Shown here piece after piece: positions 532 to 18,612 of a stretch of 20,920 nucleotides of DNA. Source of the stretch: a virus; the IMG/VR virus record IMGVR_UViG_3300042476_000641, positions 1-20,920 of that record. One strand, 5' to 3'. The position numbers and the translations under genes were made by a program. The notes beneath the pieces are model-generated. The model worked only from the letters and a program-made list of their open reading frames with translations. It searched no databases and had not been told where the DNA came from. The stretch's first letter is position 1. Every line of letters starts with the position of its first letter.

Positions 532-2820
532 ATGGCAACCAGAATGCAACAGCGTAGGGGAACCGCTTCACAATGGACATCTGCAAATCCAGTATTAAAT
601 GCTGGTGAGATGGGATGGGAATCAGATACCAATAAATTTAAAATTGGTGATGGAACAAACCACTGGGCAGATTTAGATTATTTTATTGATGGCAATTCAA
701 CTGCAAATCCTGCTTTTGGTACAAGTATTACTTTTGAAGGCGCTACCGCTGACTCTTATGAAACTACTTTATCAGTAGAAGACCCAACCGAAGATCGCAC
801 AATTACAATTCCAAATGCAAGCGGACAACTTGTTCTTCGTGATACATATGAAACACTTTCAAATAAAACTTTACAAGATCCAACAGTTGCAGGACTTAAA
901 ATTTCAGATGGCTCAATTGTTGTAGAGGGTACAACTGCAAACGATTTTGAAACTACTGTTCAATTTACTGATCCAACTGCTGATAGAACCATTACAATTC
1001 CTGACGTAACTGGTACAGTAATTACAACTGGAAACCTTTCAGACATTACAAATATTGGAGTATTTAGTTCAACTATTACAATGGAAGGAACAACTCCAAA
1101 TGATTTTGAGTTAACACTTTCTGCAGGGGATCCAACCCAAGATCGTGTAATCACTTTCCCAGACGCTAGTGGTACAGTAATTACAACTGGAAATATGTCT
1201 GATATTACTAATACTGGAATATTCTCTGGTCAAATTATACTTGAGGGTGCAACACCAAATGAATTTGAAACTACTGTTCAAGCACAAGACCCAACTGCAG
1301 ATCGTACCATTACTCTTCCAGACGTTAGCGGTACAGTAATCACAACTGGAAACCTTTCAGATATCACTGCTGTTGGAGTACTTACTACATCAGTTGTTTT
1401 TGAAGGTACTACAGCAAACGATCATGAACTAACTCTTGCTGCAGGAGATCCAACCTCTGACATAACTATTTCATTCCCTGATGCAGCAGGAACACTTGTT
1501 GTTGATACTGCTACACAGACCCTTACAAATAAAACATTAACAAGCCCACATGTAAGCAACTTAATCATTACAGATGGAAGCATTGTTCTTGAAGGTTCTA
1601 CACCAAATGATTTTGAAACTACAGTAACTTTTACTGATCCAACTGCTGACAGGACAATTACATTTCCTGACATAAGTGGTTCTGTTATTACAACTGGTGA
1701 CACAGGTACTGTAACTAGCACAATGATTTTAGATGGAACTATCCTAGATGCAGATGTTAATGCATCAGCAGCAATTGCACAATCTAAGATTTCTGGATTA
1801 ACAACAGATTTAGGAAATAAGCAAGATAAAATTTCTGGTGTATCAGATACAGAAATTGGATACCTTAGTGCTGTAACTTCAGACATTCAAGCACAACTAG
1901 ATGCTAAGTTAGCCCTTGCTGGTGGAACCATGACTGGTGCTATTGCAATGGGTACAAACAAGATTACTGGTCTTGGAACACCAACCGATGCAGCAGATGC
2001 AGCAACAAAAGCCTATGTAGATGCTCTTGGAGAAGGACTTCACATCCATGCTTCAGTAGTCGCTGCAACAACTGCTAACATTACTCTTGCTACAGATGTT
2101 GAAAACGGAGACACTCTTGACGGAGTAACTCTTGCAACTGGTAACAGAATTCTTGTTAAGAATCAATCAACTGCATCTCAAAACGGTATTTACGTAGTAG
2201 CAGCATCAGGAGCACCATCTAGAGCAGCAGACTTTGACTCCCCTGCTGAAATTGACGGAGGAGACTTCGTATTCGTAACTGGAGGAACAGCAAATGATAA
2301 CAAAGGCTTCGTACAGATAAACACTGTTGGAACAATAGGTACAGATCCAATTGAGTTTAGCCAATTCTCAGGTGCTGGAACATTTACTGCGGGTAATGGA
2401 TTAACATTAACTGATACAGCATTTAGTATTAATACTAGTATTACTGCAGATCTTTCAACAGCACAAACTCTTACAAACAAAACTTTAACAGCACCTAAAA
2501 TTAATTTAGGACTTAATGCTCAAACTGGAACAACATACACACTTGTTTTGGGTGATGCTGGAAAAGTTGTAACAGCCTCTAATTCTTCAGCAATTACAGT
2601 TACTATTCCACCATCAGGTGACGTTGCTTACGCAATTGGATCACAGATAACTGTTCTTCAAAAAGGTACAGGCCAAGTTACTTTTGCACAAGGCTCTGGA
2701 GTAACAATTAACTCCACTGGTGCTACTGCAACTGCTCCTAAACTAAGAGCACGTTACTCATCAGCAACATGCGTATATGAAGGTTCAGATGTTTGGTACG
2801 TTGTAGGAGATATTAGTTAA
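532..2820 (+). CDS. Repeat tail fibre with Mtd-like N-terminus
   Basis: A 762-residue fibre or receptor-binding protein. Residues ~1-50 (QQRRGTASQW, LNAGEMGWESDTNKFKIGDG) match the N-terminal domain family typified by the Bordetella phage major tropism determinant, which anchors many fibres. Residues ~69-390 are six imperfect copies of a unit beginning EGxTxNDFE and continuing DPTxDRTITxPDxSG, several ending VITTGNLSDIT. Two 'TNKTL' linkers are embedded. Around residues 485-500 is the AADAATKAYVDAL motif, followed by a GNRILVKNQ / NGIYVV segment and a beta-rich C-terminus ending YVVGDIS, all common in phage fibres. ATG 532 has a strong SD and its own promoter. Family assignment is good; receptor and exact virion location are unknown. 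Confidence 0.88.
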   Translation: MATRMQQRRGTASQWTSANPVLNAGEMGWESDTNKFKIGDGTNHWADLDYFIDGNSTANPAFGTSITFEGATADSYETTLSVEDPTEDRTITIPNASGQLVLRDTYETLSNKTLQDPTVAGLKISDGSIVVEGTTANDFETTVQFTDPTADRTITIPDVTGTVITTGNLSDITNIGVFSSTITMEGTTPNDFELTLSAGDPTQDRVITFPDASGTVITTGNMSDITNTGIFSGQIILEGATPNEFETTVQAQDPTADRTITLPDVSGTVITTGNLSDITAVGVLTTSVVFEGTTANDHELTLAAGDPTSDITISFPDAAGTLVVDTATQTLTNKTLTSPHVSNLIITDGSIVLEGSTPNDFETTVTFTDPTADRTITFPDISGSVITTGDTGTVTSTMILDGTILDADVNASAAIAQSKISGLTTDLGNKQDKISGVSDTEIGYLSAVTSDIQAQLDAKLALAGGTMTGAIAMGTNKITGLGTPTDAADAATKAYVDALGEGLHIHASVVAATTANITLATDVENGDTLDGVTLATGNRILVKNQSTASQNGIYVVAASGAPSRAADFDSPAEIDGGDFVFVTGGTANDNKGFVQINTVGTIGTDPIEFSQFSGAGTFTAGNGLTLTDTAFSINTSITADLSTAQTLTNKTLTAPKINLGLNAQTGTTYTLVLGDAGKVVTASNSSAITVTIPPSGDVAYAIGSQITVLQKGTGQVTFAQGSGVTINSTGATATAPKLRARYSSATCVYEGSDVWYVVGDIS
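736..1695 (+). repeat. Six-copy fibre repeat, 53 or 63 residue spacing
   Basis: Repeat units start (EG codon) at 736, 925, 1084, 1243, 1402 and 1591, giving spacings of 189, 159, 159, 159 and 189 nt. The two long spacings carry a TNKTL-type linker (SNKTL, TNKTL) with a following 'DGSIV' strand; the three short ones carry VITTGNLSDIT instead. Copies are diverged at the DNA level, so the array is old rather than a fresh slippage product. Confidence 0.9.
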
Positions 2821-2849: not shown

Positions 2850-3707
2850 ATGGCAACAGATATTCTGGGTACCATTAGTTCCTCTGCGAAGGGTGCTCCT
2901 GGCATCCCAACAATTGGAACAGCAACTGATGTGGGAACATCTCGTGCATTCAACAATGGTGCTGCCACTGTAACCTTTACCGAAGGAGCAGGAGCACCTG
3001 CAACATCTTTTACAGTTACATCATCACCAGGTGGCTTCACAGCAACTGGATCATCATCTCCAATAACCGTTGAAGGATTACAATCTAATACATCCTATAC
3101 ATTTACTGTTAAAGGAAATAACCTATCAGGTTCATCACTTGATTCATCTGCCTCTAACTCTATTACAGCAACTACAGTACCAGCAACACCCTCTGCACCA
3201 AGCGTAACAACTTCAGCATTGAATGATAATGTTTCTTGGACTGCCCCTGCAAATGGTGGTAAAGCAATTACTGGATATACTTGGGCATCTTCTGATGGAA
3301 AAGGCGCTACAGTAGGTTCAGGAACAACAAGTGTTAATGTTACTCAAGAAGCAAATACTTCACAAACTTATACAGTTTATGCAACTAACGATAATGGTAA
3401 CTCAGGAACCTCAAATGCATCAGGCAGTGTAACTACACCGCCATTCTTTCCGCCATTCTTTCCACCATTCTTTCCATTTTTCCCACCATTCTTCCCATTC
3501 TTTCCGCCATTTTTCCCATTTTTCCCACCATTCTTCCCATTCTTCCCGTTCTTCCCACCGTTCTTCCCGTTCTTCCCACCGTTCTTCCCGTTCTTCCCAC
3601 CGTTCTTCCCGTTCTTCCCGTTCTTCCCACCAAGATTTGGGTACTCTTCTGAAAGATTTAAGAATAGTATTATAAAGATTGTTAATATTAATTTAAAAAA
3701 TAAATAA
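2850..3707 (+). CDS. FnIII fibre protein with Pro/Phe tract and N-terminal piece of S74 domain
   Basis: A 285-residue virion protein, probably a fibre or tail tip component. After MATDILGTIS come two fibronectin type III domains: residues ~18-110 (with LQSNTSYTFTV) and ~112-195 (with NVSWTAPANGGKAITGYTW, a typical FnIII strand). Residues 197-261 consist only of Pro and Phe, in units of PPFF, PPFFPFF and PPFFPFFPFF. Next is RFGYSSERFK, the start of a peptidase S74 intramolecular chaperone domain. S266 and K271 have the same five-residue separation as the Ser-Lys cleavage dyad described for endosialidase NF. The reading frame then ends after 14 more residues, and the rest of the S74 domain is the next gene. 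The weak SD lies in GAAAGGG upstream of ATG 2850. Confidence 0.82.
   Translation: MATDILGTISSSAKGAPGIPTIGTATDVGTSRAFNNGAATVTFTEGAGAPATSFTVTSSPGGFTATGSSSPITVEGLQSNTSYTFTVKGNNLSGSSLDSSASNSITATTVPATPSAPSVTTSALNDNVSWTAPANGGKAITGYTWASSDGKGATVGSGTTSVNVTQEANTSQTYTVYATNDNGNSGTSNASGSVTTPPFFPPFFPPFFPFFPPFFPFFPPFFPFFPPFFPFFPFFPPFFPFFPPFFPFFPPFFPFFPFFPPRFGYSSERFKNSIIKIVNINLKNK
3438..3632 (+). repeat. Pro/Phe-only coding repeat (PPFFPFF units)
   Basis: 65 uninterrupted codons for Pro (29) and Phe (36). Unit order is PPFF twice, PPFFPFF three times, a 10-residue PPFFPFFPFF, PPFFPFF twice, the 10-residue form again, then PP. The 5' copies vary in codon use (ttt/ttc, cca/ccg), whereas the 3' copies are nearly identical 21-nt units. 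This suggests recent expansion from the 3' side. Confidence 0.97.
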
Positions 3708-3751
3708 TTAAATTAAAAAGTGGAGGGGATAAAGTGGAATCAATAAATATT
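3684..3751 (+). repeat. AATATT direct repeats bounding a 62-bp segment that splits the S74 domain
   Basis: AATATT occurs at 3684-3689 and again at 3746-3751. Removing one repeat plus the intervening sequence (62 bp) joins the two flanking genes in frame: ...IIKIVN then IDFEQTIKGLNP..., a continuous S74 domain in a 367-residue protein. The extra 62 bp supplies a TAA stop, a GGAGGGG ribosome site (3722-3728) and a GTG start (3734). Confidence 0.75.
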
Positions 3752-4015
3752 GATTTTGAACAAACCATAAAGGGGTTAAATCCAGTAACTTGGATATACA
3801 ATAACGATCCTAAAAAAACTAGGCAAATAGGATATATAGCAGAAGAGGTTAATAAAATAGAATCTCTTCAATATATAGTCTTATTAGATAAAGAAGAAAA
3901 GCCGTTAGCACTTAGATATGATCTTCTTTCTGTTTACTCTATAGAAGTTTTAAAAATATTAATGCAAAAAATAGAAATTTTAGAAAATGAAATAAAAATA
4001 TTAAAAAATAAATAA
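3734..4015 (+). CDS. C-terminal part of peptidase S74 intramolecular chaperone domain, separate gene
   Basis: A 93-residue protein corresponding to most of an S74 / intramolecular chaperone domain, which trimerises fibres and is then cleaved off. Visible family features are GLNPVTWIYN (residues ~14-23), QIGYIAEEV (~32-40), the LRYDLLSVYSIEVLK segment (~60-74) and a C-terminal helix with coiled-coil character (IEILENEIKILKNK). The Ser-Lys cleavage dyad is not here but in the upstream gene. GTG 3734 has an excellent SD (GGAGGGG, 5 nt spacing), so separate translation is plausible. It could act in trans on the fibre, or be the remnant of a broken gene. Family call is strong; function of the split form is uncertain. 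Confidence 0.75.
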   Translation: MESINIDFEQTIKGLNPVTWIYNNDPKKTRQIGYIAEEVNKIESLQYIVLLDKEEKPLALRYDLLSVYSIEVLKILMQKIEILENEIKILKNK

Positions 4016-4038
4016 AGTTTTAATTTTATAAAGCAATA

Positions 4039-4060
4039 TGATACAATTAATTTAAAGGAG
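4039..4060 (+). promoter_or_regulatory. Extended -10 promoter before the oxygenase block
   Basis: TGaTACAAT at 4039-4047, then AAAGGAG (4054-4060) ahead of ATG 4074. It lies in the 58-bp gap between the fibre genes and the accessory block and would drive the first accessory transcript. Confidence 0.55.
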
Positions 4061-4073
4061 TAAAAAAAATAAA

Positions 4074-5612
4074 ATGGGACTAAAATTTGGAACTTTGTGG
4101 TTTGGTAATAAGCCTACACTACTACAGCAAATTTCTTGGAATTCATATATTTATCATGGGCATGAATTGAATATATATTTATATGATATGTCTATTGATG
4201 TACCAGAGGGCGCAATTAAAAAAGATGCAAATGAAATTATATTAGAAAAAGATATATTTTTACCAAAATTTGATGATGAAAGTTTTGGTGGTGGACATGC
4301 TCAATTTTGTGATATATTTAGAATTCATATGTTAAAAAACACAGACTTTATCTGGACAGATTCAGACATGGTTTGTTTAAAAGATGTTTGGCCAAATCAA
4401 GAGCCATATCTTTTTGGATTAATGATAGATCAGGCTCGCCCAGCAGAAGGTCCAATAAGAGTTAATAACGATATCCTGTACATTAATAATCCTGATATTA
4501 TAAATGAAATACTTGATAATTTTAAGGATTTGCCAGAGTCTTATGGAGATGATCAGACTAGAACTGGTCCAGATTTGTTAACACGTATATTTTCAGAAAA
4601 AAATTTAATGAGTTTTGCTAAAGAAGAAAATGTTTTTCATCCAGTAAGATATGCTCATACTATTAATTTTTTATCACCAGACCATTTTAAAGAAACGATG
4701 GATTTAATTAGTGATAGTGTTGCCGTATCATTTTTTAATGATTCTTGGCGTAGACATAAATTAGTTATTCCAGATATAAACTCTGTTCCAAACGAAAATA
4801 CTGTACTTGGATATTTTACTAATAAGTATATACATAAAAAAAATCCAAATATTGTATTAAATAAAACCTACATTGATCAAAATAATTCTTCATCGCAATA
4901 TTTAGAAATTGATGAAAATCAAACCCCATGGTTTACTAAAGATAGATCAGAGACAGCATTAAATAGATTTCCAACAAGAATTATAGGAAAAGATATTGTA
5001 GTAGAAAATCCAGCATTAGGAATAAACCTATATAAGAACACTTTTTCAAAAGAAGATTCTGAAAGATATATAAATATTCTTGAGTCAAATTTAGGCGGTA
5101 ATGGTCCATATAAGTGGTCAGAAGCCAAAGTTACAAATTCTGACCAGCCAATTAAAAAAGCCAGAGATTGTGTTGATTTTAGATACAAACAGGAAAATTT
5201 AGGACCAAGAGATAGTTACAATGCTGAATTGCTTGATCTACATGAAGAAATATATCAAAAACTAAAGTTTTGCGTTGATGATTATGCAAGATATTGGGGA
5301 ATAAACGTAGTATATTATGAAGCATTTAATTTTGTAAAATATGAAGGAGAAGGAAAACATTTTAATATACATGCTGATCATGGACCAGTATATAACTGTA
5401 CTGTATCTGCCGTAATTTATTTAAATGACAACTATGAAGGTGGAGAAATTAAATTTCCAAGACTTGATGGCTATACCCATACTCCAAAAATAGGAGATAT
5501 ACTTTTATGCCCATCTAATTATATTTATGAACATGCATCGTTGCCAATGAAATCAGGAGCAAAATATTGTGTTGTTGTAATGACAGATATTAATGATCTA
5601 GGTCATAAATAA
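4074..5612 (+). CDS. Glycosyltransferase fused to 2OG-Fe(II) prolyl-hydroxylase-type domain
   Basis: A 512-residue bifunctional protein. Residues ~1-280 look like a GT-A fold glycosyltransferase: an LWFGNKP N-terminus, then DFIWTDSDMVCLKDVW with a metal/nucleotide-sugar DxD motif at D96-S97-D98, and VNNDILYINN further on. Residues ~310-512 form a 2-oxoglutarate/Fe(II) dioxygenase: H433-A-D435 and H487 bind iron and K497 would bind the 2OG carboxylate. The H-to-K distance of 10 equals that in collagen prolyl 4-hydroxylases. The oxygenase half is clearly paralogous to the gene at 6399 (shared RDCVDF, EAFNF, YNCTVS, YEGGE). A hydroxylase-plus-glycosyltransferase fusion suggests hydroxylate-then-glycosylate chemistry, as in lysyl hydroxylases and mimivirus L230. 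Substrate unknown. It overlaps the next start by 1 nt. Confidence 0.85.
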   Translation: MGLKFGTLWFGNKPTLLQQISWNSYIYHGHELNIYLYDMSIDVPEGAIKKDANEIILEKDIFLPKFDDESFGGGHAQFCDIFRIHMLKNTDFIWTDSDMVCLKDVWPNQEPYLFGLMIDQARPAEGPIRVNNDILYINNPDIINEILDNFKDLPESYGDDQTRTGPDLLTRIFSEKNLMSFAKEENVFHPVRYAHTINFLSPDHFKETMDLISDSVAVSFFNDSWRRHKLVIPDINSVPNENTVLGYFTNKYIHKKNPNIVLNKTYIDQNNSSSQYLEIDENQTPWFTKDRSETALNRFPTRIIGKDIVVENPALGINLYKNTFSKEDSERYINILESNLGGNGPYKWSEAKVTNSDQPIKKARDCVDFRYKQENLGPRDSYNAELLDLHEEIYQKLKFCVDDYARYWGINVVYYEAFNFVKYEGEGKHFNIHADHGPVYNCTVSAVIYLNDNYEGGEIKFPRLDGYTHTPKIGDILLCPSNYIYEHASLPMKSGAKYCVVVMTDINDLGHK

Positions 5613-6388
5613 TGACAACACAAAAAAATATGGCTATCTTTAGATCTTTTAGACCTTGGCTAACTAAAGATAGTATATCTACTCCAATTTCAACACAAAA
5701 AGAAATTCCAGATTGGTATAAAAATGCAGATAGATTTGCAAAAATGTCAAATGGAGAATATTATAAAGCACCAAAAGGTACTTGTCCATTTCCAAAAGAA
5801 GGAACAACAGATGATTATGGAAAAATTCCTACATGGAAGGCCTGTCCAGCAATTCTTGATGCCTTTACAACTGGATATCTTTTTAAAACTCCATGTGAAT
5901 TAACATTTTTTAAAAATAACCAAGGAATAATTAATGTTAAAATTGAAGATCAAAAATATCAAGATTTTTGCACTCAAAGACCACCCATGCCACAATTTGA
6001 ACACCCTAAAGGATTTTATAAAAATCATTTTGCTTGGTCAGCAGATTGGGGACTAGAACTCCCAGATGGCTATAGCGCAATGTTTATGACACCAATGAAT
6101 CGGTTTGACCTACCATTCTTAAATACAACTGGAATAGTTGATTCTGACAAGGTTCATCTTTTAGGAAGTTTTCCATTTTTTATAGCAGATGGTTGGGAAG
6201 GAACACTTCCAGCAGGAACACCATATCTACAGGTTCTTCCATTTAAACGAGAAGACTGGGAAAGCAAAATTGAAATTTTAGATCATTCCCAAATTTATGA
6301 TAAAATGAGTAATAACATGAAATTTTATAGACAGCCTGACGGTGGTGTATATAAAAATAAAGTCTGGTCAAAAAGAGAATACAAATAA
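5612..6388 (+). CDS. Conserved phage protein, DUF6065-like
   Basis: A 258-residue soluble protein without signal peptide or membrane segment. Recognisable blocks are EIPDWYKNA (~residues 27-35), TWKACPAILDAFTTGY (~74-89), GYSAMFMTPMNRFDLPF (153-169) and LPAGTPYLQVLPFKREDW (~199-216). The order of blocks (a Cys-Pro strand, a 'xPxNR' strand, a 'AGTPxxxxxP' strand) parallels the gene at 7064, and both resemble what I recall of the DUF6065 family, a predicted beta-rich protein of unknown function. ATG 5612 overlaps the preceding TAA by one base (TAATG), implying translational coupling to the glycosyltransferase-oxygenase. No catalytic motif is visible. Family name is held with moderate confidence; function is unknown. 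Confidence 0.6.
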   Translation: MTTQKNMAIFRSFRPWLTKDSISTPISTQKEIPDWYKNADRFAKMSNGEYYKAPKGTCPFPKEGTTDDYGKIPTWKACPAILDAFTTGYLFKTPCELTFFKNNQGIINVKIEDQKYQDFCTQRPPMPQFEHPKGFYKNHFAWSADWGLELPDGYSAMFMTPMNRFDLPFLNTTGIVDSDKVHLLGSFPFFIADGWEGTLPAGTPYLQVLPFKREDWESKIEILDHSQIYDKMSNNMKFYRQPDGGVYKNKVWSKREYK

Positions 6389-6398
6389 GGAGAATAAA

Positions 6399-7064
6399 AT
6401 GCAAACTTGGACAGAAAAAGAAAAATTAGGAAATGGAATAACCTGTTATCGTGGAGTAATAAAAAAAGAATTTGACGTTATTAATGTGCTTGAGTCTAAT
6501 CTTAGCCCAGTTGATAAAACAGAAGATGAGTTTAGATGGCTTCCAGCATATGTTGGATATCAACAACTTATGCCAGACTATAGGGATTGTGTTGATTTTA
6601 AATTTAAAAAAACTGACCTTCAAAATAATAGTAGTATAAATTCTTTAAATCTTCAGGCATTGTGGCAAAAGGTATATGATGCACAATTCGCAGCAGTTGA
6701 AGACTATAGAAGAGACTTTAACATTATGCCATTGAAATATTGGGAAGCATTTAATTTTATTAAATATGGTCCAGGTCAACACTTTAAAGAGCATCACGAC
6801 CATGGATATTCTTATAACTGTACAGTATCTCTTGTTGCGTATGTAAACGATGACTACGAAGGCGGAGAGTTATACTTTAGACTTCAAGGTTTAAACATTA
6901 AGCCAAAGGCTGGAGATCTTTACATATTCCCGTCTAACTTTATGTATCCTCATCAGGCTATGCCAGTTCATTCTGGAACAAAGTATTCCATAGTAACAAT
7001 GTTAGATTATAGCAAAAAGTATCATACACCAGACATGTATGATCCAAAATGGAATAATGAGTGA
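6399..7064 (+). CDS. 2OG-Fe(II) oxygenase, prolyl-4-hydroxylase type
   Basis: A 221-residue stand-alone dioxygenase. Iron ligands are H132-x-D134 (in KEHHDHG) and H185; K195 is placed to bind 2-oxoglutarate. FPSNFMYPHQ and SGTKYSIV are the typical final strands. It is the closest paralogue of the C-terminal half of the 4074 protein. I chose ATG 6399, with AAGGAG at 6387-6392 six nt upstream, over an in-frame GTG further upstream that would run 47 nt into the previous gene. Its stop codon shares one base with the following start (TGATG). Expected to hydroxylate a protein side chain or small molecule in the infected cell; the substrate cannot be read from sequence. Confidence 0.87.
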   Translation: MQTWTEKEKLGNGITCYRGVIKKEFDVINVLESNLSPVDKTEDEFRWLPAYVGYQQLMPDYRDCVDFKFKKTDLQNNSSINSLNLQALWQKVYDAQFAAVEDYRRDFNIMPLKYWEAFNFIKYGPGQHFKEHHDHGYSYNCTVSLVAYVNDDYEGGELYFRLQGLNIKPKAGDLYIFPSNFMYPHQAMPVHSGTKYSIVTMLDYSKKYHTPDMYDPKWNNE

Positions 7065-7780
7065 TGTTAAATATATCAGTTGAAAAAAATTTAGATTCTG
7101 TAATTAAAATATCTCCAATGTCCATAAAAAGGGATTGGATGGATTTAACACCAGAAAAACATGCTTATAGATGTTTTCCAGTTACTCAGGCAAATGTAGT
7201 TGGTTGGGGTTTATCATGTACAGAAGATATTGAGTTTACTTGGAATGGTATTAGTGACACAAGATCTGATAATGTTAGTATTTTAAAAGGAAATAATTTT
7301 TTACATACTGGAAGAGGGCAAGCAACTGTAAGCATAACTACTGGTTTAGTATTTAGAACTGAAAAAGATATAAGTATGCTTACAATAAACCCAGTTAATT
7401 ATTTTAATGATGACTTTGAAGTTATGTCTTCATTAGTTAGTACATCCTGGCTTGATACTGGATTTCCATTAGCAATAAAAGCAAGGTGTGCAAATAAAAA
7501 TATTATAATAAAGGCTGGCACTCCTATTGCAACTATTATTCCTATATCTCTTACCGCAATGAATAATACATCAATTCAAATTGTTGATTATTCTGATTTA
7601 GATAGAAAAAGAGAAAAGGCTCATCAGTCTTATGGAGAAGAAGCACAAAAAATAAATCAAAAAGGTGAATGGACTGACTGGTATAGAGATGCTATAAATG
7701 AAAAAGGAGAGTCTTTAGGTAGTCATGAAGTTAAAGTTTTAAAACTTTCTGTAAATGATCAATCATCAAGGAGAGTATAG
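7064..7780 (+). CDS. DUF6065-like protein, second copy
   Basis: A 238-residue protein. Residues ~34-60 (HAYRCFPVTQANVVGWGLSC, then IEFTWNG) resemble the start of the DUF6065 family as I recall it; INPVN (108-112), DTGFPL and KAGTPIATIIPIS (150-162) are further blocks. Block order matches the gene at 5612, so the two are probably diverged paralogues. The charged C-terminal ~55 residues (DRKREKAHQSYGEE...) look like a helical tail. ATG 7064 overlaps the previous TGA by one base (TGATG), indicating coupling to the oxygenase; GTG at 7061 is an alternative start. Each DUF6065-like gene directly touches an oxygenase gene. Function unknown. Confidence 0.62.
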   Translation: MLNISVEKNLDSVIKISPMSIKRDWMDLTPEKHAYRCFPVTQANVVGWGLSCTEDIEFTWNGISDTRSDNVSILKGNNFLHTGRGQATVSITTGLVFRTEKDISMLTINPVNYFNDDFEVMSSLVSTSWLDTGFPLAIKARCANKNIIIKAGTPIATIIPISLTAMNNTSIQIVDYSDLDRKREKAHQSYGEEAQKINQKGEWTDWYRDAINEKGESLGSHEVKVLKLSVNDQSSRRV

Positions 7781-8235
7781 TGTATGAATTAAATATGTCA
7801 AATCAAAATATTCTTAATGATTATCTTAATAAAATTAAAAAAGAAAAGGTATATCATTATTTATTAACAGTATGCAGAGATGAAAAAGACAAAATCCAAT
7901 CTATTATATCTTTTTATAGTTTAAAAGAGGCTATTGAGGGATACGAAATGTACCAAGATGCGGGATTTGCAAAACAATATTTAATAGTATCTTTATATTA
8001 TCCAGACGGAAAGGTTGATACTAAAACTCTAAGAAGAAATCATGCTGGGGATCCATCTTTTGTTAGACAAAATTACATAGATACTGTTGAGGCGTTGCAT
8101 ACAGTTAAAAATAAGTTAAATAAAGAAGACTATGAAGAACTATGTATGAAAATTGTAACCTCATTTGCAAAAGATAATTGGAGATTTGATGCAAATAGAT
8201 TTTTAAAACAATTAGAAATAGATAAGGAGTTATAG
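7780..8235 (+). CDS. Uncharacterised 151-residue phage protein
   Basis: I do not recognise this protein. It is soluble, rich in Lys, Tyr and Glu, and begins with a predicted helix (YLNKIKKEKVYHYLLTVCRD). Mid-protein are a SLKEAIEGYEMYQDAGFAKQYLIVSLY segment, spanning about residues 46-72, and DGKVDTKTLRRNHAGDPSFV at about residues 76-95. Its C-terminal third looks helical. It starts at GTG 7780, one base overlapping the preceding TAG, with AAGGAGAG at 7768-7775. An ATG at 7795 (MSNQN) is an alternative start without a clear SD. Co-transcription with the oxygenase block is likely; it ends 29 nt before the next gene, in a gap that holds a promoter. Confidence 0.6.
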   Translation: MYELNMSNQNILNDYLNKIKKEKVYHYLLTVCRDEKDKIQSIISFYSLKEAIEGYEMYQDAGFAKQYLIVSLYYPDGKVDTKTLRRNHAGDPSFVRQNYIDTVEALHTVKNKLNKEDYEELCMKIVTSFAKDNWRFDANRFLKQLEIDKEL

Positions 8236-8258
8236 GGATATATTTCCTATGATATAAT
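8232..8258 (+). promoter_or_regulatory. Extended -10 promoter with overlapping inverted repeat, leaderless start
   Basis: TGaTATAAT at 8250-8258 ends only 6 nt before ATG 8265, so a normal transcription start would fall on the start codon; no SD is present. An imperfect inverted repeat (ATAGGGA 8232-8238 with TTTCCTAT at 8243-8250, one G-T pair) sits immediately upstream and could be an operator or a weak hairpin after the previous gene. Confidence 0.55.
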
Positions 8259-8264
8259 AAAATT

Positions 8265-8939
8265 ATGGACAAAACACAAGCATCTGTGGTAATTAGAAAG
8301 CCATCAATGACGCCTTCTGGGTGGTTTGGAAATAGCAAAGACATGATTGTTGAGTTAGAAAACTTTATGACCCAAGAAGAAATAGATTTTTTAGAAAAGG
8401 CTGCTAAATCATTAACAATTTGGGATGTAACACAAAGTCATGTAAATGAAAATGGTACAGTGGTTTATGATTCTGATTACTGGAAAGACAGAGTTGCAAC
8501 ATCTCCAACATTAGATAAAAATGATCCCGCAATTGCACCAGTTATTGCAGGATTATTTCAAAGATTAAAGCCAATAGTTGAAGATTTTTATAAAGTTAAA
8601 GTTATTCCTACTGGAACAACTATTGTTAGATGGCTTCCAGGCCAATTACAAAATCCTCATGCCGACAAAGAATTACATGAGGGTCCAGATGCTGGATTAC
8701 CAAATGACTTTCCTAATTATGACTTATCTAGTTTATTTTATTTAAACGAAGATTATGAAGGTGGAGAATTATATTTTCCAAATCAAGGAGTTAAATTTAA
8801 ACCTAAAAAGGGTGCTGCTTATTTTTTCCCAGGAGACATGCAGTACATCCATGGAGTAACAGAAATAAAAAGTGGTATTAGATATACTTGTCCATTTTTT
8901 TGGGAAATTATAGAGCATACAGGAGATAGAAAACCATGA
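8265..8939 (+). CDS. 2OG-Fe(II) oxygenase, prolyl-4-hydroxylase type
   Basis: A 224-residue dioxygenase. H132-A-D134 (in NPHADKE) and H196 (in YIHGV) are the iron ligands and R206 the predicted 2-oxoglutarate anchor, so this copy uses Arg where the 4074 and 6399 copies use Lys. YEGGELYFP and FFPGDMQ are family-typical strands. The N-terminal ~30 residues (IRKPSMTPSGWFG) are an extra segment. The gene appears to start a new transcript with a leaderless mRNA. It overlaps the next gene by 4 nt (ATGA), so the two are probably coupled. Substrate unknown. Confidence 0.87.
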   Translation: MDKTQASVVIRKPSMTPSGWFGNSKDMIVELENFMTQEEIDFLEKAAKSLTIWDVTQSHVNENGTVVYDSDYWKDRVATSPTLDKNDPAIAPVIAGLFQRLKPIVEDFYKVKVIPTGTTIVRWLPGQLQNPHADKELHEGPDAGLPNDFPNYDLSSLFYLNEDYEGGELYFPNQGVKFKPKKGAAYFFPGDMQYIHGVTEIKSGIRYTCPFFWEIIEHTGDRKP

Positions 8940-9691
8940 ATTTAAATAATAAAAAAAGATTAACAAAAGATATTGTAATTTATGACAATTTTATAAATGA
9001 AGATGTTTCTGCAAAACTTATAAAGGTTTTGAATAAACATGCAGATACTGGTAAAATTACTTGGATGCCTATATCATTTTATGAGTCGTACTCTTCTGTT
9101 CTTCCACAAGATAATGATGAGTATGTTATTGCCGAAGGACTCCCATCTGATATTTTTTCACAAATAAAACAGGGAATTATTGAGGCTGTTGCAAGTGTTC
9201 ATGACCTTGATCCAAAAATAATTTGTCAAATTGGATATCATACACAAAAATGGGAGCCAGGGGCTTACGCTAGAATTCATTCTGACAATACAGATGAGCA
9301 TGGAAATTCTGGTGCATTTACTAGAAGTAGATATGCAGCATTTTTATATTTAAATGATAGTTTTGATGGAGGTCTTTTGCAATTTCCAAATCAAGATTTA
9401 AGTATTCAGCCTAAAGTTGGAATGCTTGCTGCATTTGACGGGGGATTCAATAATATGCATGAGGTAACTCTTATAACTAAAGGTATCAGATATACTATTG
9501 GCTCTTTCTGGGATGACCGTGAAGAAGATGCATACCCACAAGAAGTAAGAGATGCATGGGCAGCAGAGATGAAAGAAACTAGAGCACAACAAGAAATTGA
9601 AAGAGCGGAATGGCAAGAATTACTTAAGCAAGGCTGGAAGATAGATATGGATGGAAATAAATATAAGCCAGATGAGGTTTTTAATGGTTGA
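8936..9691 (+). CDS. 2OG-Fe(II) oxygenase with charged C-terminal extension
   Basis: A 251-residue dioxygenase. H115-S-D117 (RIHSDN) and H175 (NMHEV) are the iron ligands, with R185 ten residues later. Strands FLYLNDSFDGGLLQFPNQD and VGMLAAFDGG follow family order. After the core (about residue 190) there is a ~60-residue extension rich in Glu, Ala, Arg and Trp, predicted helical (EVRDAWAAEMKETRAQQE), absent from the other copies here; it could mediate protein contacts. It starts at ATG 8936, four bases overlapping the previous gene, and runs 8 nt into the next. Substrate unknown. Confidence 0.85.
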   Translation: MNLNNKKRLTKDIVIYDNFINEDVSAKLIKVLNKHADTGKITWMPISFYESYSSVLPQDNDEYVIAEGLPSDIFSQIKQGIIEAVASVHDLDPKIICQIGYHTQKWEPGAYARIHSDNTDEHGNSGAFTRSRYAAFLYLNDSFDGGLLQFPNQDLSIQPKVGMLAAFDGGFNNMHEVTLITKGIRYTIGSFWDDREEDAYPQEVRDAWAAEMKETRAQQEIERAEWQELLKQGWKIDMDGNKYKPDEVFNG

Positions 9692-10343
9692 AAATTTTAA
9701 AAAACAATTAATAAAAAATAACTATGAATTTGAAGAGATTACAGATGAAATTATATTAGTTAAAAATTTTTTATTAAAAGAAGAAATAGATTTTATATGG
9801 AGTAAAATTAACGAAGCATCTCAAGCAGACTGGGAGATTGAATATTTATCAAATTTACCAAGATTTTGTATGGAAAAGTTTGGCAGGGATGATGTTGAAA
9901 ATCTTGTTGCTGAGGGAAAGTTTGAAATAACTCAAAATTGGTCTGATAAAAATTTGGATATTTCAAAATATAAAGAGCACGGAAGCATTCACAGCAGGAT
10001 TAATAATTTAATAGTTGAATCTGATCCTGGCCTATATTTGGGTGGTTTTGCTACTATTCAAAGAATGCAACCAGGAGTTCAATTAAAATCCCATACTGAT
10101 CAAAATACAGATCCATCCATTAAATATGCCACAATATTGTATCTTAATGATAATTATAATGCAGGAGAACTTTTTTTTGAAAAATTAAATATAGAGTTAC
10201 GACCTAAACCAGGAGAAATTTTATTTTTTCCAGGAGACGAAAAACATGAACATGGAGTAAGACATGTTGGTGAAGGTCCAATAAGATATGTTTTAGTTGG
10301 ATTTATAAAAGAAAAGGATCATTATGTTAAAAATAGATATTAA
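9684..10343 (+). CDS. 2OG-Fe(II) oxygenase, prolyl-4-hydroxylase type
   Basis: A 219-residue dioxygenase. H137-T-D139 (KSHTDQN) and H190 (HEHGV) are the iron ligands; R201 is the predicted 2-oxoglutarate anchor, eleven residues on because of a short insertion (VGEGP). GELFFEKLNIELRPKPGE and FFPGDE are typical strands. I chose ATG 9684 (GAGG at 9674-9677, 6 nt away) over an ATG at 9651 that would run 41 nt into the previous gene. The N-terminal half differs from the other copies, which suggests a different substrate. Confidence 0.85.
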   Translation: MVENFKKQLIKNNYEFEEITDEIILVKNFLLKEEIDFIWSKINEASQADWEIEYLSNLPRFCMEKFGRDDVENLVAEGKFEITQNWSDKNLDISKYKEHGSIHSRINNLIVESDPGLYLGGFATIQRMQPGVQLKSHTDQNTDPSIKYATILYLNDNYNAGELFFEKLNIELRPKPGEILFFPGDEKHEHGVRHVGEGPIRYVLVGFIKEKDHYVKNRY

Positions 10344-10354
10344 GAAAATAAATA

Positions 10355-11071
10355 ATGAATAAAGAAATATTAGACCCAAAAGTTTATTACTATACCGATG
10401 TAATAGAAGATTTTAATAAATTTCAAAAAACTTTAAAAGAATTAGATTCTCTTAATTCAGATATTGAATTAAAGGTAAATGTTTGGGACATTTGGACAGC
10501 CTCTAATGACAAAAATTTTATTTATGGTGAAACAAAAGTATTTGATATTAATAAAATAAATAAATTAAGTGGAGAAATGGGAGAAAAAAGCAAATATATT
10601 TATGATTCAGTAATGACTACTCTTTATAATGTTTGCAAAGATTATGCAACTTCTCTTGGAGATTTTGATGAACCAAAACTTTTTCCAACCTTTAATATAA
10701 AAAAATATAATACTGGAATGGGAATGGGGGCACATTTTGATCAATTAGATGGAGACAAAACTTTAAAATATTCTCTTGTCATGTATTTAAATGATGATTG
10801 CGAAGGCGGAGAAATATCTTTTCAATTAAAAGATTATGATGGAGGCTGGACAAGTACTGATGGATTTTCTAAAGGAACGGCACCATTTGTAGATTTAGAC
10901 TATGATATATCTGTTGCAACTGGGGCGATTAACTTTGGAATAAAACCAAAAGCAAATAGTGTTGTTATTTTCCCAGCATTTCCTCCATATTTTCATACAG
11001 CGCATACTGTAAAATCTGGCGTAAAATATATGGTTCCAGGACATTGGATTTACAATAATACAGGGATATAA
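10355..11071 (+). CDS. 2OG-Fe(II) oxygenase, first of a tandem pair
   Basis: A 238-residue dioxygenase. H127-F-D129 (GAHFDQ) and H214 (YFHTAH) bind iron, K224 is the predicted 2-oxoglutarate anchor. It closely resembles the following gene from the first residues (MNKEILDPKVYYYTDV against MNKEVLEEKVYYYTNV) to the last strands (FPxxPPYxHTAH, KYMVPxHWI). It is 29 residues longer, with extra residues near 30-65 and in the loop around residues 160-190. No strong SD precedes ATG 10355. A local duplication followed by divergence is the simplest origin. Confidence 0.86.
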   Translation: MNKEILDPKVYYYTDVIEDFNKFQKTLKELDSLNSDIELKVNVWDIWTASNDKNFIYGETKVFDINKINKLSGEMGEKSKYIYDSVMTTLYNVCKDYATSLGDFDEPKLFPTFNIKKYNTGMGMGAHFDQLDGDKTLKYSLVMYLNDDCEGGEISFQLKDYDGGWTSTDGFSKGTAPFVDLDYDISVATGAINFGIKPKANSVVIFPAFPPYFHTAHTVKSGVKYMVPGHWIYNNTGI

Positions 11072-11098
11072 TTAATACACAAGAGATGGAGAATGTAA

Positions 11099-11728
11099 AT
11101 GAATAAAGAAGTTTTAGAGGAAAAAGTTTATTATTACACTAATGTGTTTGATGACTTACAAAAACTTATGAATGCTGTAGAAGAAAGTTCGCCAAATTGG
11201 GAAGAATGGACAGCCTGTAGCGGAGAACACTATGTTTATGGAACGGGAAAAACCATAGTATCATCTACTGGAAATATTGATGGAGAAGTAAATGATTATA
11301 TTTTTAATACAATAAATGATGCATTTCAAAAAGTAGCAAAAGACTATGCAATGTCAATGGGGGATAGTTCCGATCCTAAACTTTTTCCAGCATTTCCAAT
11401 TAAAAAATATATGGCTGGAACATTTATGGGCGCACACTTTGATCAACAAGAGGGCGATGAAAGACTTAAATATTCTTTAGTTATGTATCTTAACGATGAC
11501 TATGAGGGGGGAGAAATTTCATTTACAATAAAGGATCCAAATGGACCTATTGAAAACGGAGCGCCTGTAGCAGATTTTGCAAATGCTGGTCCTGAAACTT
11601 ATAGTTTTGCTATAAAGCCAAAAGCAGGAAGCATAATTATTTTTCCACCATCACCACCATATCATCACACTGCTCATTTAGTAAAGAGTGGTTTTAAATA
11701 TATGGTTCCACAGCACTGGATTCATTAA
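11099..11728 (+). CDS. 2OG-Fe(II) oxygenase, second of a tandem pair
   Basis: A 209-residue dioxygenase paralogous to the preceding gene. H113-F-D115 and H190 are iron ligands; K200 is ten residues after the distal His, the collagen-P4H-like arrangement. YLNDDYEGGEISF and FPPSPPYHHTAH match its neighbour. GATGGAG at 11086-11092 serves as SD for ATG 11099. All catalytic residues are kept in both copies, so neither looks like a decaying duplicate. Substrate unknown. Confidence 0.86.
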   Translation: MNKEVLEEKVYYYTNVFDDLQKLMNAVEESSPNWEEWTACSGEHYVYGTGKTIVSSTGNIDGEVNDYIFNTINDAFQKVAKDYAMSMGDSSDPKLFPAFPIKKYMAGTFMGAHFDQQEGDERLKYSLVMYLNDDYEGGEISFTIKDPNGPIENGAPVADFANAGPETYSFAIKPKAGSIIIFPPSPPYHHTAHLVKSGFKYMVPQHWIH

Positions 11729-11738
11729 TTTAATATAA

Positions 11739-12407
11739 ATGAAAACGGCAATAGTTACGGGTGCTAGTAAGGGCGTTGGCTATGCCACTGTAAAACGTTT
11801 ATCTGAAAATGGATATAAGGTCATAGCAGTATCTAGGAATTTGTCAAAAATTTCAGAGTTAGTTTCAGAAAACGTTGAAGTTTATCAATTAGATGTAACA
11901 AATTTTTCAGAAATAGAAAAATTTTTTGAAATATATAAAGATATAACTCTTGATCTTTTGGTAAATAATGCTGGTGGTGGAGTTAGTCCTACAAAAATAA
12001 TTAATGAAATTCCAGAAAATTTTCAAAGGGCTTATGCTATTAATGTATCTGGACCAATGTATTTGTCTCAACTATTTGTACCATGTATGAAAAGATCAGA
12101 GTCTCCAACCATAATATTTGTAACATCTTTTGGTGGCAAAATTCCTAATCGTGGGGGAGGAAACTATACCAATGCTAAGCGTGGGCAACGAGGTCTAGTA
12201 GAAACTATGAGACTAGAATTTCCAGAGTATAGTATAAAAATAACTGAAATTTGTCCCGCCACAATTGATACTCAAGAACAAAAAAAAGATTCTGCTTTAT
12301 CAGCAGAAGACTTAGCAGAAGCAATTTATTGGGTTGGATCTTTACCAAAACATGTAAATATAAATCAAATAGAGATGTGCAATATCAATAGCAGTAAATT
12401 TGGATAA
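11739..12407 (+). CDS. Short-chain dehydrogenase/reductase (SDR)
   Basis: A 222-residue NAD(P)-dependent oxidoreductase of the classical SDR type. It has the nucleotide-binding TGASKGVG at residues 7-14, NNAG at 76-79, catalytic S130 and Y143-T-N-A-K147, and an upstream NVSG that supplies the usual Asn. SRN near residue 32-34 follows the second strand, where a basic residue often favours NADP(H). The protein is slightly shorter than typical (about 250), lacking much of the C-terminal substrate loop. It lies 10 nt after the last oxygenase with no clear SD and ends the accessory block. It may act on a product of the oxygenases or on a sugar or lipid; nothing in the sequence decides this. Confidence 0.88.
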   Translation: MKTAIVTGASKGVGYATVKRLSENGYKVIAVSRNLSKISELVSENVEVYQLDVTNFSEIEKFFEIYKDITLDLLVNNAGGGVSPTKIINEIPENFQRAYAINVSGPMYLSQLFVPCMKRSESPTIIFVTSFGGKIPNRGGGNYTNAKRGQRGLVETMRLEFPEYSIKITEICPATIDTQEQKKDSALSAEDLAEAIYWVGSLPKHVNINQIEMCNINSSKFG

Positions 12408-12565: not shown

Positions 12566-14596
12566 ATGTCAGAGGTCTTTTCTTTTCGTTTATCAGATGA
12601 ATTCGTAAGTAAATATGTTGGAATCTCAGCACCATTTGGATTTACAGATGCAGGCTCCAACTCATTAGGAGAAATCACCTTTATACGTACCTATTCTAGA
12701 ATGAAAGAAGATGGAACAAAAGAAAGATGGCATGAGGTTTGTAAACGTGTAATTGAAGGAATGTACTCAGTACAAAAAAACCATGCTAAAGACAATCGTC
12801 TGCCGTGGAATGATAATAAAGCCCAGAAGTCTGCTCAAGAAGCCTATGATCGTATGTTTAACTTAAAGTGGACCCCACCAGGTAGAGGTCTGTGGGCATT
12901 TGGAACTCCCATGACTATGGAAAAAAGAAACTCTGCTTCTCTACAAAACTGTGCTATGGTCTCTACTCGTGATATTGATCGTAATGATCCAGGAGCACTA
13001 TTTGCTTGGATAATGGATGCCTTAATGCTAGGTATAGGTGTAGGGTTTGATACTATTGGACAAGACAAAGAAATGACCATTTATACCCCTACAGAACCAG
13101 AGAATATATGGAATATTCCAGACACTCGTGAAGGCTGGGTAGATTCTGTAAGAATGCTTTTAAACTCATATTTACGCCCTAATCAGGCTATACAAAAATT
13201 TAACTATGACCTTATCCGTCCTTTAGGTGCCCCCATAAAAGGCTTTGGAGGGGTTGCTAGCGGTCCAGCACCACTTATTGCACTACATAACAAGATAGAC
13301 ACAGTAATAGGCGGTAGAGCAGGAGAAAAACTTGATTCTAGAGCAATAGTAGATATTGTTAATCTTATTGGTACATGCGTTGTTTCTGGAAATGTTCGTC
13401 GTTCTGCTACCCTTGCTTTAGGGTTGGCTGGAGATGATGATTTTATTAATCTTAAAAATCCAGAGGTTTTTCCAGATCGTAATTCATTTGATCCAGCAAA
13501 ACCAGGATGGGCATGGATGTCAAATAATTCTGTTTCTGCAGAAGTTGGAACAAAATATGAAGACTATGTTGATTTAATTTCAAATAATGGAGAGCCAGGA
13601 TTTATTTGGTTAGATGTTGCCAGAGATTATGGAAGATTGGCAGATGCTCCAGATTATAAAGATTCTCGTGTTATGGGATTTAATCCATGCGCTGAACAAC
13701 CATTAGAATCTTATGAACTGTGTACTCTTGTAGAAGTTCATTTAAATAGACACGAAGATAAAGAAGATTTTCTTCGCACATTAAAATTTGCATATCTATA
13801 TGGTAAAACTGTTACACTAATGCCAACACATTGGCAAACCACAAATGGAATTATGCAACGTAATCGTCGTATTGGAACATCTTTAACTGGTATTGCATCA
13901 TTTGCAGATACAAAAGGTATGCCAACTGTTCGTGATTGGATGGACGAAGGGTATAAGAAAATTAGACAATATGATCATTCATATTCAGAATGGTTATGTG
14001 TACGTGAATCAATTCGTGTAACTACCGTCAAACCTTCAGGATCTGTTTCATTACTTTCTGGTGCAACACCAGGAGTTCATTGGGGTCCAGGAGGATCTTT
14101 TTATCTTCGTGCTATAAGGTTTGGCAATACAGATCCAATGGTACATTTATTTAAAGCAGCAGGGTATAAAATTGAAGATGATCTTGTATCAGCAAATACC
14201 TCAGTAGTATATTTCCCAGTAGCATCTGGACATCCTCGTTCTGAAAAAGATGTAAGTCTTTTTGAAAAGATTGGTTTGGCTGCTACCGCTCAAAAATATT
14301 GGTCTGACAATGGGGTGTCTGTAACTTTGTCATTTGATAAAGAGTCTGAAAGCAAACACATTGCTCCAGCACTACATATGTATGAAGGTCAATTAAAGGC
14401 AGTTTCATTTTTACCTATGGGTAATCAAACTTATCCTCAGCAACCATACACTCAAATAACGAAAGAAGAATATAACTCATATGTCGGAAAAATTGGTAAG
14501 ATTGATTGGTCTGCTATCTATGATGGTAAGGACAATCTTGACGCAGAGTCTGAAAAGTATTGCTCAACAGACGCATGTGAGATTAAATTATATTAA
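12566..14596 (+). CDS. nrdJ: Class II (adenosylcobalamin-dependent) ribonucleotide reductase
   Basis: A 676-residue ribonucleotide reductase of the monomeric B12-dependent type typified by the Lactobacillus leichmannii enzyme (about 740 residues), making deoxynucleotides for phage DNA synthesis. Active-site landmarks are present: C129 (QNCAMV), N373, C375 and E377 in NPCAEQ, C386 eleven residues after C375 (the spacing of C408/C419 in the reference), and the C-terminal redox pair C666/C671 (CSTDAC, the spacing of C731/C736). VKPSGSVSLLSGATPGVHWG is the conserved phosphate-binding region. The gene is intact with no intein or frameshift. It needs host cobalamin but no oxygen and no second subunit. 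Own promoter with a structured leader; it sits between accessory and structural genes. Confidence 0.95.
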   Translation: MSEVFSFRLSDEFVSKYVGISAPFGFTDAGSNSLGEITFIRTYSRMKEDGTKERWHEVCKRVIEGMYSVQKNHAKDNRLPWNDNKAQKSAQEAYDRMFNLKWTPPGRGLWAFGTPMTMEKRNSASLQNCAMVSTRDIDRNDPGALFAWIMDALMLGIGVGFDTIGQDKEMTIYTPTEPENIWNIPDTREGWVDSVRMLLNSYLRPNQAIQKFNYDLIRPLGAPIKGFGGVASGPAPLIALHNKIDTVIGGRAGEKLDSRAIVDIVNLIGTCVVSGNVRRSATLALGLAGDDDFINLKNPEVFPDRNSFDPAKPGWAWMSNNSVSAEVGTKYEDYVDLISNNGEPGFIWLDVARDYGRLADAPDYKDSRVMGFNPCAEQPLESYELCTLVEVHLNRHEDKEDFLRTLKFAYLYGKTVTLMPTHWQTTNGIMQRNRRIGTSLTGIASFADTKGMPTVRDWMDEGYKKIRQYDHSYSEWLCVRESIRVTTVKPSGSVSLLSGATPGVHWGPGGSFYLRAIRFGNTDPMVHLFKAAGYKIEDDLVSANTSVVYFPVASGHPRSEKDVSLFEKIGLAATAQKYWSDNGVSVTLSFDKESESKHIAPALHMYEGQLKAVSFLPMGNQTYPQQPYTQITKEEYNSYVGKIGKIDWSAIYDGKDNLDAESEKYCSTDACEIKLY

Positions 14597-18216: not shown

Positions 18217-18612
18217 ATGGAATCACTAATTAATCCAAAAACTGGTCAACCCTATGTAAAAAATGTTCGTCGTAAGGTAATAGATAAGCATTATGACTGG
18301 GGTCTTTATGTATATAAAAAGTCTAATGGAAAATGGTTCACAGATAATACTGGTTCAATTTTAAATATTCCATCAGACCGTGGCGACTTATCTAAAATTG
18401 CAGAACTGCGAAAAGTTGCTATGCACTATGGCGACGATGGTGAAGGTAAGGCAATATTTGTTCCTGGGCTAACAAGAATTAGTGAAGAAGAGTATTCTGA
18501 ACAAAAAGAAAGAATGAAAGAAGGATTAATTCCTTCAATGAATGATTTAGGTGCTTGGCATGCAGCACAACAAACATTAGATAAGTATGGAAAGGATGCT
18601 GTAAATGAGTGA
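18217..18612 (+). CDS. Small uncharacterised gene upstream of the portal
   Basis: A 131-residue basic to mixed-charge protein I do not recognise. The first half (NPKTGQPYVKNVRRKVIDKH, DWGLYVYKKSNGKWFTDNTG) looks beta-rich and the second half helical (EEEYSEQKERMKEGLIP, WHAAQQTLDKYG). No signal peptide or membrane segment. I chose ATG 18217 over in-frame GTG 18211 because the promoter's -10 ends at 18209, so GTG 18211 would probably not be transcribed. It overlaps the portal gene by 8 nt and so is probably coupled to it. A head-assembly or packaging role is suggested by position only. Confidence 0.65.
   Translation: MESLINPKTGQPYVKNVRRKVIDKHYDWGLYVYKKSNGKWFTDNTGSILNIPSDRGDLSKIAELRKVAMHYGDDGEGKAIFVPGLTRISEEEYSEQKERMKEGLIPSMNDLGAWHAAQQTLDKYGKDAVNE

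Follow-up and report, generated by a model that had tools for sequence, protein, structure and literature searches.

Oxygenases dependent on 2-oxoglutarate (2OG) and Fe(II) are common 'auxiliary' genes among aquatic phages. Most T4-like cyanophages are reported to carry one to five 2OG genes and the Synechococcus cyanophage S-SCSM1 24, in four families; the same source states that what such genes do in viruses had not been studied specifically, and predicts that they affect the level of 2-oxoglutarate in the host (PMC9602691). Protein hydroxylases of viruses are already known, from chlorovirus and mimivirus. By both profile and fold, the closest described relatives of the domains considered here are the peptidyl prolyl 4-hydroxylases (P4Hs) PBCV-1 vCPH, Bacillus anthracis P4H, Chlamydomonas P4H-1 and PHD2, which share with them the HxD...H motif and the 2OG-binding Lys/Arg. 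Each of these is an enzyme on its own and acts on Gly-Pro-X, Ser-Pro or HIF, whereas the virus record IMGVR_UViG_3300042476_000641 (positions 1 to 20,920; this whole stretch of 20,920 nt is hereafter the window) holds a multi-copy array of seven such domains beside a Phe/Pro tract, their putative substrate.

Cyanophage 2OG genes belong to the same Pfam and PHROG families as those of the window (PF13640 and phrog_61) and likewise occur in many copies per genome, but they are mostly scattered over 190-230 kb, unlike the compact array found here, and even the densest cyanophage cluster seen, in KF156338, has about five members over 8 kb, of which two fall below cut-off. An earlier sequence-only reading of the window drew its conclusion from the number of oxygenases in one contiguous block; that number is not special to this phage, as five to ten are the norm in the group and a cyanophage with 24 2OG genes has been reported (PMC9602691). 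What sets the window apart from known many-copy 2OG phages is instead a cassette of several enzymes in a conserved order, linked with a single tail repeat, and we found no paper in the open-licence literature that connects the 2OG oxygenases of phages with a Phe/Pro tract in a tail protein. The nearest isolates by portal gene, the Stanwilliamsviridae Streptomyces phages (e.g. BoomerJR), have a portal 47% identical to that of the window, and BoomerJR, unlike the window, shows neither a PF13640 match nor a tract. A further comparison is offered by human LH3 and mimivirus L230, which, as the protein encoded at 4074 may do, join a glycosyltransferase (GT)-like N-terminal part and a C-terminal 2OG domain in one chain. 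Profile matches to them are weak (1.4e-4 and 0.003), and they act on collagen lysine, whereas the 4074 protein is nearer to prolyl hydroxylases and its GT half is poorly supported.

Linkage of the Phe/Pro tract and the oxygenase array

The gene directly upstream of the oxygenase block (2850-3707; plus strand, as are all genes for which we give both ends) encodes the candidate substrate, a tail-type protein in which two fibronectin-III (fn3) domains (9.2e-9) are joined by an (FFPP/FFP)n tract and, of an S74 domain, its first strand. Its tract comprises 65 residues at window positions 3438-3632, 29 Pro and 36 Phe, written in a mixture of TTC, TTT, CCA and CCG codons. Elsewhere the tract is found in proteins of different make-up (fn3 plus S74, Hint-type, with Cys-rich ends, or short), and the residue at its first aromatic position varies, being F, then Y, and rarely S, H or W.

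The genetic link between tract and array is strong. When records were picked solely by the DNA pattern of the tract, PF13640 was present in 47 of the 50 making up the first batch (all at least 16.8 kb), with six or more matches in 34/50, and in 32/44 of a second batch containing many short contigs. Fifty control records picked by a collagen-like GPX repeat pattern gave PF13640 in 8 and the tract in none; many matches to this pattern arise by chance, so the set serves more as a control than as a test of a collagen substrate. In the reverse direction the tract was detected in 104/136 array loci, and all 32 loci in which it was not detected stop at most 1.8 kb upstream of their first oxygenase. 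We also assembled a portal-matched background of 30 records, whose portals are 86-96% identical to that of the window. Here the tract was found in 6/6 records with arrays of six or more oxygenases and in 0/24 of the others, which carry none to four (Fisher 1.7e-6); this and other p values are nominal because the contigs are related, redundant and partial. Since fragments that miss the region lose both features at once, the matched records of at least 35 kb, where the tract is seen in 4/4 array-bearing phages and 0/9 others, together with synteny, outweigh the raw counts.

Synteny points the same way. In seven portal-matched records free of the array the block 2850-12407 is gone, and the tail-fibre and ribonucleotide reductase (RNR) genes lie close together. 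The former, at the left flank of the window (532-2820), encodes a tail fibre with an Mtd_N domain (PF18454, 8.2e-13), homologues of which also occur in cassette-free relatives, adjoining RNR at the empty sites; the latter, at the right flank (12566-14596), encodes a class II type RNR (PF17975, 1.2e-31; PF21995, 1.8e-13) and is found in relatives both with and without the cassette. Moreover, in all 62 loci where an oxygenase was found the one nearest to the tract lies downstream of it. Only this direction is informative; we dropped the distance from tract to nearest 2OG gene as a measure (median 1.1 kb, against 0.9 kb for random points), because the arrays are dense. The pairing is also seen in phages with portals only 48% identical and in records without a PF04860 portal match; a T4-type portal search of the latter tract-bearing records gave no match, and was uninformative as control genomes were equally silent. 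In bacterial assemblies 2OG neighbours accompany 3/4 long tracts; the fourth tract lies where its stretch ends, and 2OG neighbours are lacking for all 13 tract matches that are short or due to chance.

Taken together these results show a cassette in which a tract-bearing tail-type protein is accompanied by 2OG oxygenases of prolyl-hydroxylase type, five to ten in number and mostly in the same order. Similar phages either have the whole of it between their tail-fibre and RNR genes or lack it altogether. The proposal that the seven domains are not a lone auxiliary gene but make up a system dedicated to modification is supported by the ordered cassette in more than 100 contigs, the separate clades and purifying selection described below, and presence or absence as a unit; what it lacked was the likely substrate directly upstream, which had not been connected with the block. 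The block as it was drawn, at 4074-11728, omitted the linked tail gene upstream (2850-4015) and, downstream, a short-chain dehydrogenase/reductase (SDR; 11739-12407; PF00106, 9.1e-40), which by gene order is the usual final gene of the cassette.

The seven oxygenases and their relatives

All seven domains match PF13640 (2OG-FeII_Oxy_3) above the curated cut-off, with per-protein E values from 1.2e-15 to 1.7e-8. Oxygenase 1 is the C-terminal half of the 4074-5612 protein, fused to the putative GT (match 5328-5576, 1.8e-9), and is followed by oxygenase 2 (6399-7064; match 6753-6995, 1.2e-15), oxygenase 3 (8265-8939; match 8637-8900, 1e-8), oxygenase 4 (8936-9691; match 9245-9505, 1.7e-8), oxygenase 5 (9684-10343; match 10053-10307, 1.3e-11), oxygenase 6 (10355-11071; match 10694-11035, 5e-9) and oxygenase 7 (11099-11728; match 11402-11722, 4e-10). 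The starts used for 6399 and 9684 are ATG codons within longer open reading frames (ORFs) opening at 6342 (GTG) and 9651. Four residues, H131, D133, H185 and Y196 when numbered on the 4074 C-terminal half, do not vary across the alignment of all seven, and a Lys or Arg follows the distal His by 10-11 residues in each, so that the profile search and alignment bear out the sequence-only reading in its count of P4H-type domains, their coordinates and their HxD, His and Lys/Arg residues. Pairwise identity is 47% for 10355 and 11099, 43% for the 4074 C-terminal half and 6399, and mostly 20-33% for the others, so that a single recent tandem duplication does not suffice to explain the array.

The nearest sequence and structure relatives of these oxygenases are peptidyl prolyl hydroxylases. 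By profile, the nearest solved structures are Bacillus anthracis P4H (9e-11), prolyl 3-hydroxylase 1, chlorovirus vCPH, PHD2 and Pseudomonas P4H. An AlphaFold model of the 4074 protein, the sole copy predicted, has a C-terminal half with a predicted local distance difference test (pLDDT) score mostly above 90, which matches PHD2, Chlamydomonas P4H-1 (also in its Ser-Pro peptide form), vCPH and Pseudomonas P4H, with the free-amino-acid-type Streptomyces PolD among the structural matches too. For this copy, then, the suggestion that the domains might prove to lack a double-stranded beta-helix core is answered by a confident 2OG half resembling prolyl hydroxylases. The cut-off of PF12851 (TET/JBP) was missed by 8265 (20.5 against 34.9 bits, E 3e-4), and the other six gave no match to this family at E 0.01. 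The PHROG labels 'ferrochelatase' and 'DNA endonuclease V' were discarded as annotation carry-over, because it is the 2OG domain that gives the match; deposited cyanophage records bear these erroneous product names too.

Related viral loci, collected by a search with two of the block proteins, mostly hold 5-10 oxygenases in 7.7 kb, and seven is the commonest count among 89 long sequences. There are 107 loci with at least six block genes of 2OG type. The order in the loci listed is the tract protein, the 4074-type 2OG gene, 5612, 6399, 7061, (7780), 8265, 8936, 9684, 10355 and/or 11099, SDR and (RNR). In our tree every one of the seven oxygenases falls in its own supported clade, together with orthologues from other loci; the best conserved, 8265, has a median identity of 87% in relatives. 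All seven are under purifying selection (ratio of nonsynonymous to synonymous polymorphism, pN/pS, 0.08-0.27) and free of internal stops, in keeping with the initial impression that none is visibly decayed, and all four key catalytic residues are intact in 1196/1295 domains of relatives. The copies are thus old, distinct and not decaying. Among 50,697 isolate phage records we found no DNA-level close relative of the window and no close relative of the 7061 protein, and for 6399 only distant 2OG matches in cyanophages and a Methylophilales phage.

In many relatives the orthologues of 8265 and 8936 are separated by an additional 2OG-like protein of ~300 residues, with HxS or RxD in place of HxD (for example L011:11381-12277, L051:7666-8556, L158:12061-12957 and L132:12032-12955). 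We count 24 distinct HxS sequences of this protein, the gene for which is missing from the window. Judged by its altered motif, it might be a conserved pseudo-enzyme or perform a different chemistry.

Proposed role of the cassette and alternatives

P4H-type enzymes work on extended proline-rich peptides. Because it is a peptide of this kind that constantly accompanies the array, the explanation we favor, and hold to be probable though by no means secure, is that the block 2850-12407 forms a mobile cassette for tail modification, in which prolyl-hydroxylase-type enzymes modify the Phe/Pro tract of the tail protein. Each oxygenase would bind Fe(II) and 2-oxoglutarate, as expected of its family, and hydroxylate prolines of the tract or, less likely, Phe. 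The paralogues might then take different repeat positions or different ring carbons, and in the window phage and a few relatives the fused or adjacent GT could perhaps add sugars to the new hydroxyls. The likely effect would be that the Phe/Pro stretch, which is very hydrophobic, becomes soluble and stiff as a polyproline-type rod, or that its binding is altered. Rather than acting in several steps, one of the options raised by the sequence-only reading, the seven enzymes could equally serve different sites of one repeat protein, serve different substrates, or be partly redundant. For the broader proposal, that a large group of uncultured phages builds hydroxylated (in some cases glycosylated) Phe/Pro-rod tail proteins by means of a transferable multi-enzyme cassette, a counterpart of collagen and plant extensin maturation, we see about even chances.

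Several observations weigh against this explanation. A number of tract proteins, chiefly those with internal tracts, lack a visible oxygenase nearby (G006, G010, G044, L251 and L265), and certain tract-bearing phages have one or two distant oxygenases, single ones being 5-25 kb off. Tract length and enzyme number are weakly correlated (Spearman 0.25). Three cyanophage genomes checked have 8-13 PF13640 matches (S-SCSM1 has 13), yet no FFPP tract. As to sugar addition, the GT domain is undetected in most relatives and the GT half of 4074 is itself weakly supported, with PF04572 at 21.7 bits lying slightly below the cut-off of 22.3 and an AlphaFold model of low confidence; the GT-2OG fusion is found only in the window and in locus L254, with the GT being separate in some relatives.

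The best of the alternatives is that the enzymes act on targets elsewhere, for instance on several proteins of the virion or on host proteins, and that the FFPP protein, instead of being a substrate, is a receptor-binding partner transferred along with the array. Several diverged paralogues would suit several substrates, and Pseudomonas P4H, one of the structural matches, acts on EF-Tu; but since the sole constant companion of array loci is the tract, in proteins that otherwise differ, we consider this unlikely. We think it improbable that the 2OG enzymes, SDR and GT form a small-molecule or glycan pathway whose product, made or decorated for use in the virion or the host envelope, is a sugar, a lipid or a compound derived from an amino acid. 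Although an SDR and a possible GT lie within the block, and PolD is among the structural matches, the top matches are peptidyl prolyl hydroxylases, the block has no further biosynthetic genes and the GT is absent from most relatives.

Phage tail regions exchange often, and tract and array, which are absent together in relatives, might merely share a recombination-prone region and be functionally unconnected. Conserved order, the downstream position of the oxygenases and purifying selection all speak against such hitch-hiking, as do the lack of any untruncated exception among array loci and a pairing that spans different tract proteins and phage lineages, so that we regard it as very improbable. 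Equally improbable, in our view, is DNA hypermodification by TET/JBP-like oxygenases and a GT, with nucleotide enzymes (RNR and a protein of dUTPase-like fold) nearby. It would draw on the weak PF12851 match in 8265, the GT-like domain and the dUTPase-like fold predicted for 7061 in a block adjoining RNR, but in 8265 that match falls short where PF13640 passes, relatives free of the cassette also have RNR, and the block adjoins a tail gene and tracks with it. Finally, a metabolic role in lowering 2-oxoglutarate or reprogramming host nitrogen metabolism, as put forward for cyanophage 2OG genes (PMC9602691), seems just as improbable here, as one enzyme would suffice for it and it does not fit with seven separate orthologues that are conserved and linked to a tail gene.

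The cassette thus offers a specific candidate substrate right upstream of the enzymes, and a natural comparison of close phages with and without it. If tail modification is indeed its function, some phage 2OG genes would shift from 'host metabolism' to 'virion maturation', protein hydroxylation would join phage tail biology and tail maturation would need oxygen, iron and 2-oxoglutarate, with phages finishing their own tail fibers much like cells that hydroxylate collagen or plant cell-wall proteins.

Other genes of the window and the tail protein

Between the oxygenase genes lie three further members of the cassette. The 7061-7780 protein contains DUF6065 (PF19541, 1.6e-31; 110.1 bits against a cut-off of 26.6), and a distant paralogue of it, encoded two genes away at 5612-6388, has no Pfam match and is recognized by phrog_7084 (2.7e-34). 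The 7061 model (pLDDT 94) has dUTPases as its best matches, with Z about 11 at about 10% identity, and a dUTPase-like fold is thus predicted. No dUTPase Pfam match was found for this protein, and its near-invariant columns (W26, C38, G48, D56, N113, P155 and G220) look unlike dUTPase motifs, as judged by appearance without motif-by-motif mapping. Within the proposed tail-modification cassette the DUF6065 pair might, more tentatively, help in fiber presentation or assembly. The third gene (7780-8235) encodes a small protein with no Pfam or PHROG match that is present in 52 related loci. Beyond RNR the window holds a gene for a large protein at 14632, with a weak laminin-G/ConA-like match, and the portal gene at 18605. 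Promoter and terminator scans gave no usable result.

The fiber ORF 2850 closes in the first S74 strand (YSSERFKxSI), and the remainder of this endosialidase-type chaperone domain forms a separate ORF (3734-4015; PF13884, 2.4e-6, 28.2 bits against a cut-off of 22) with its own ribosome-binding site. The same split is seen in relatives (L065:4133-5209 and L488:1134-2210) and is therefore no sequencing error; the separate S74 ORF may encode a chaperone acting in trans. Within L272:3560-6969, an FFPP protein of another kind, ending in a Hint-like part, has a four-base overlap with a 2OG-like ORF missed by PF13640. Some phages have two separate Phe/Pro tract regions (the L320 record, with G113:26817 and 34493, as well as G046, G048 and G038), one of which is several kilobases off the array.

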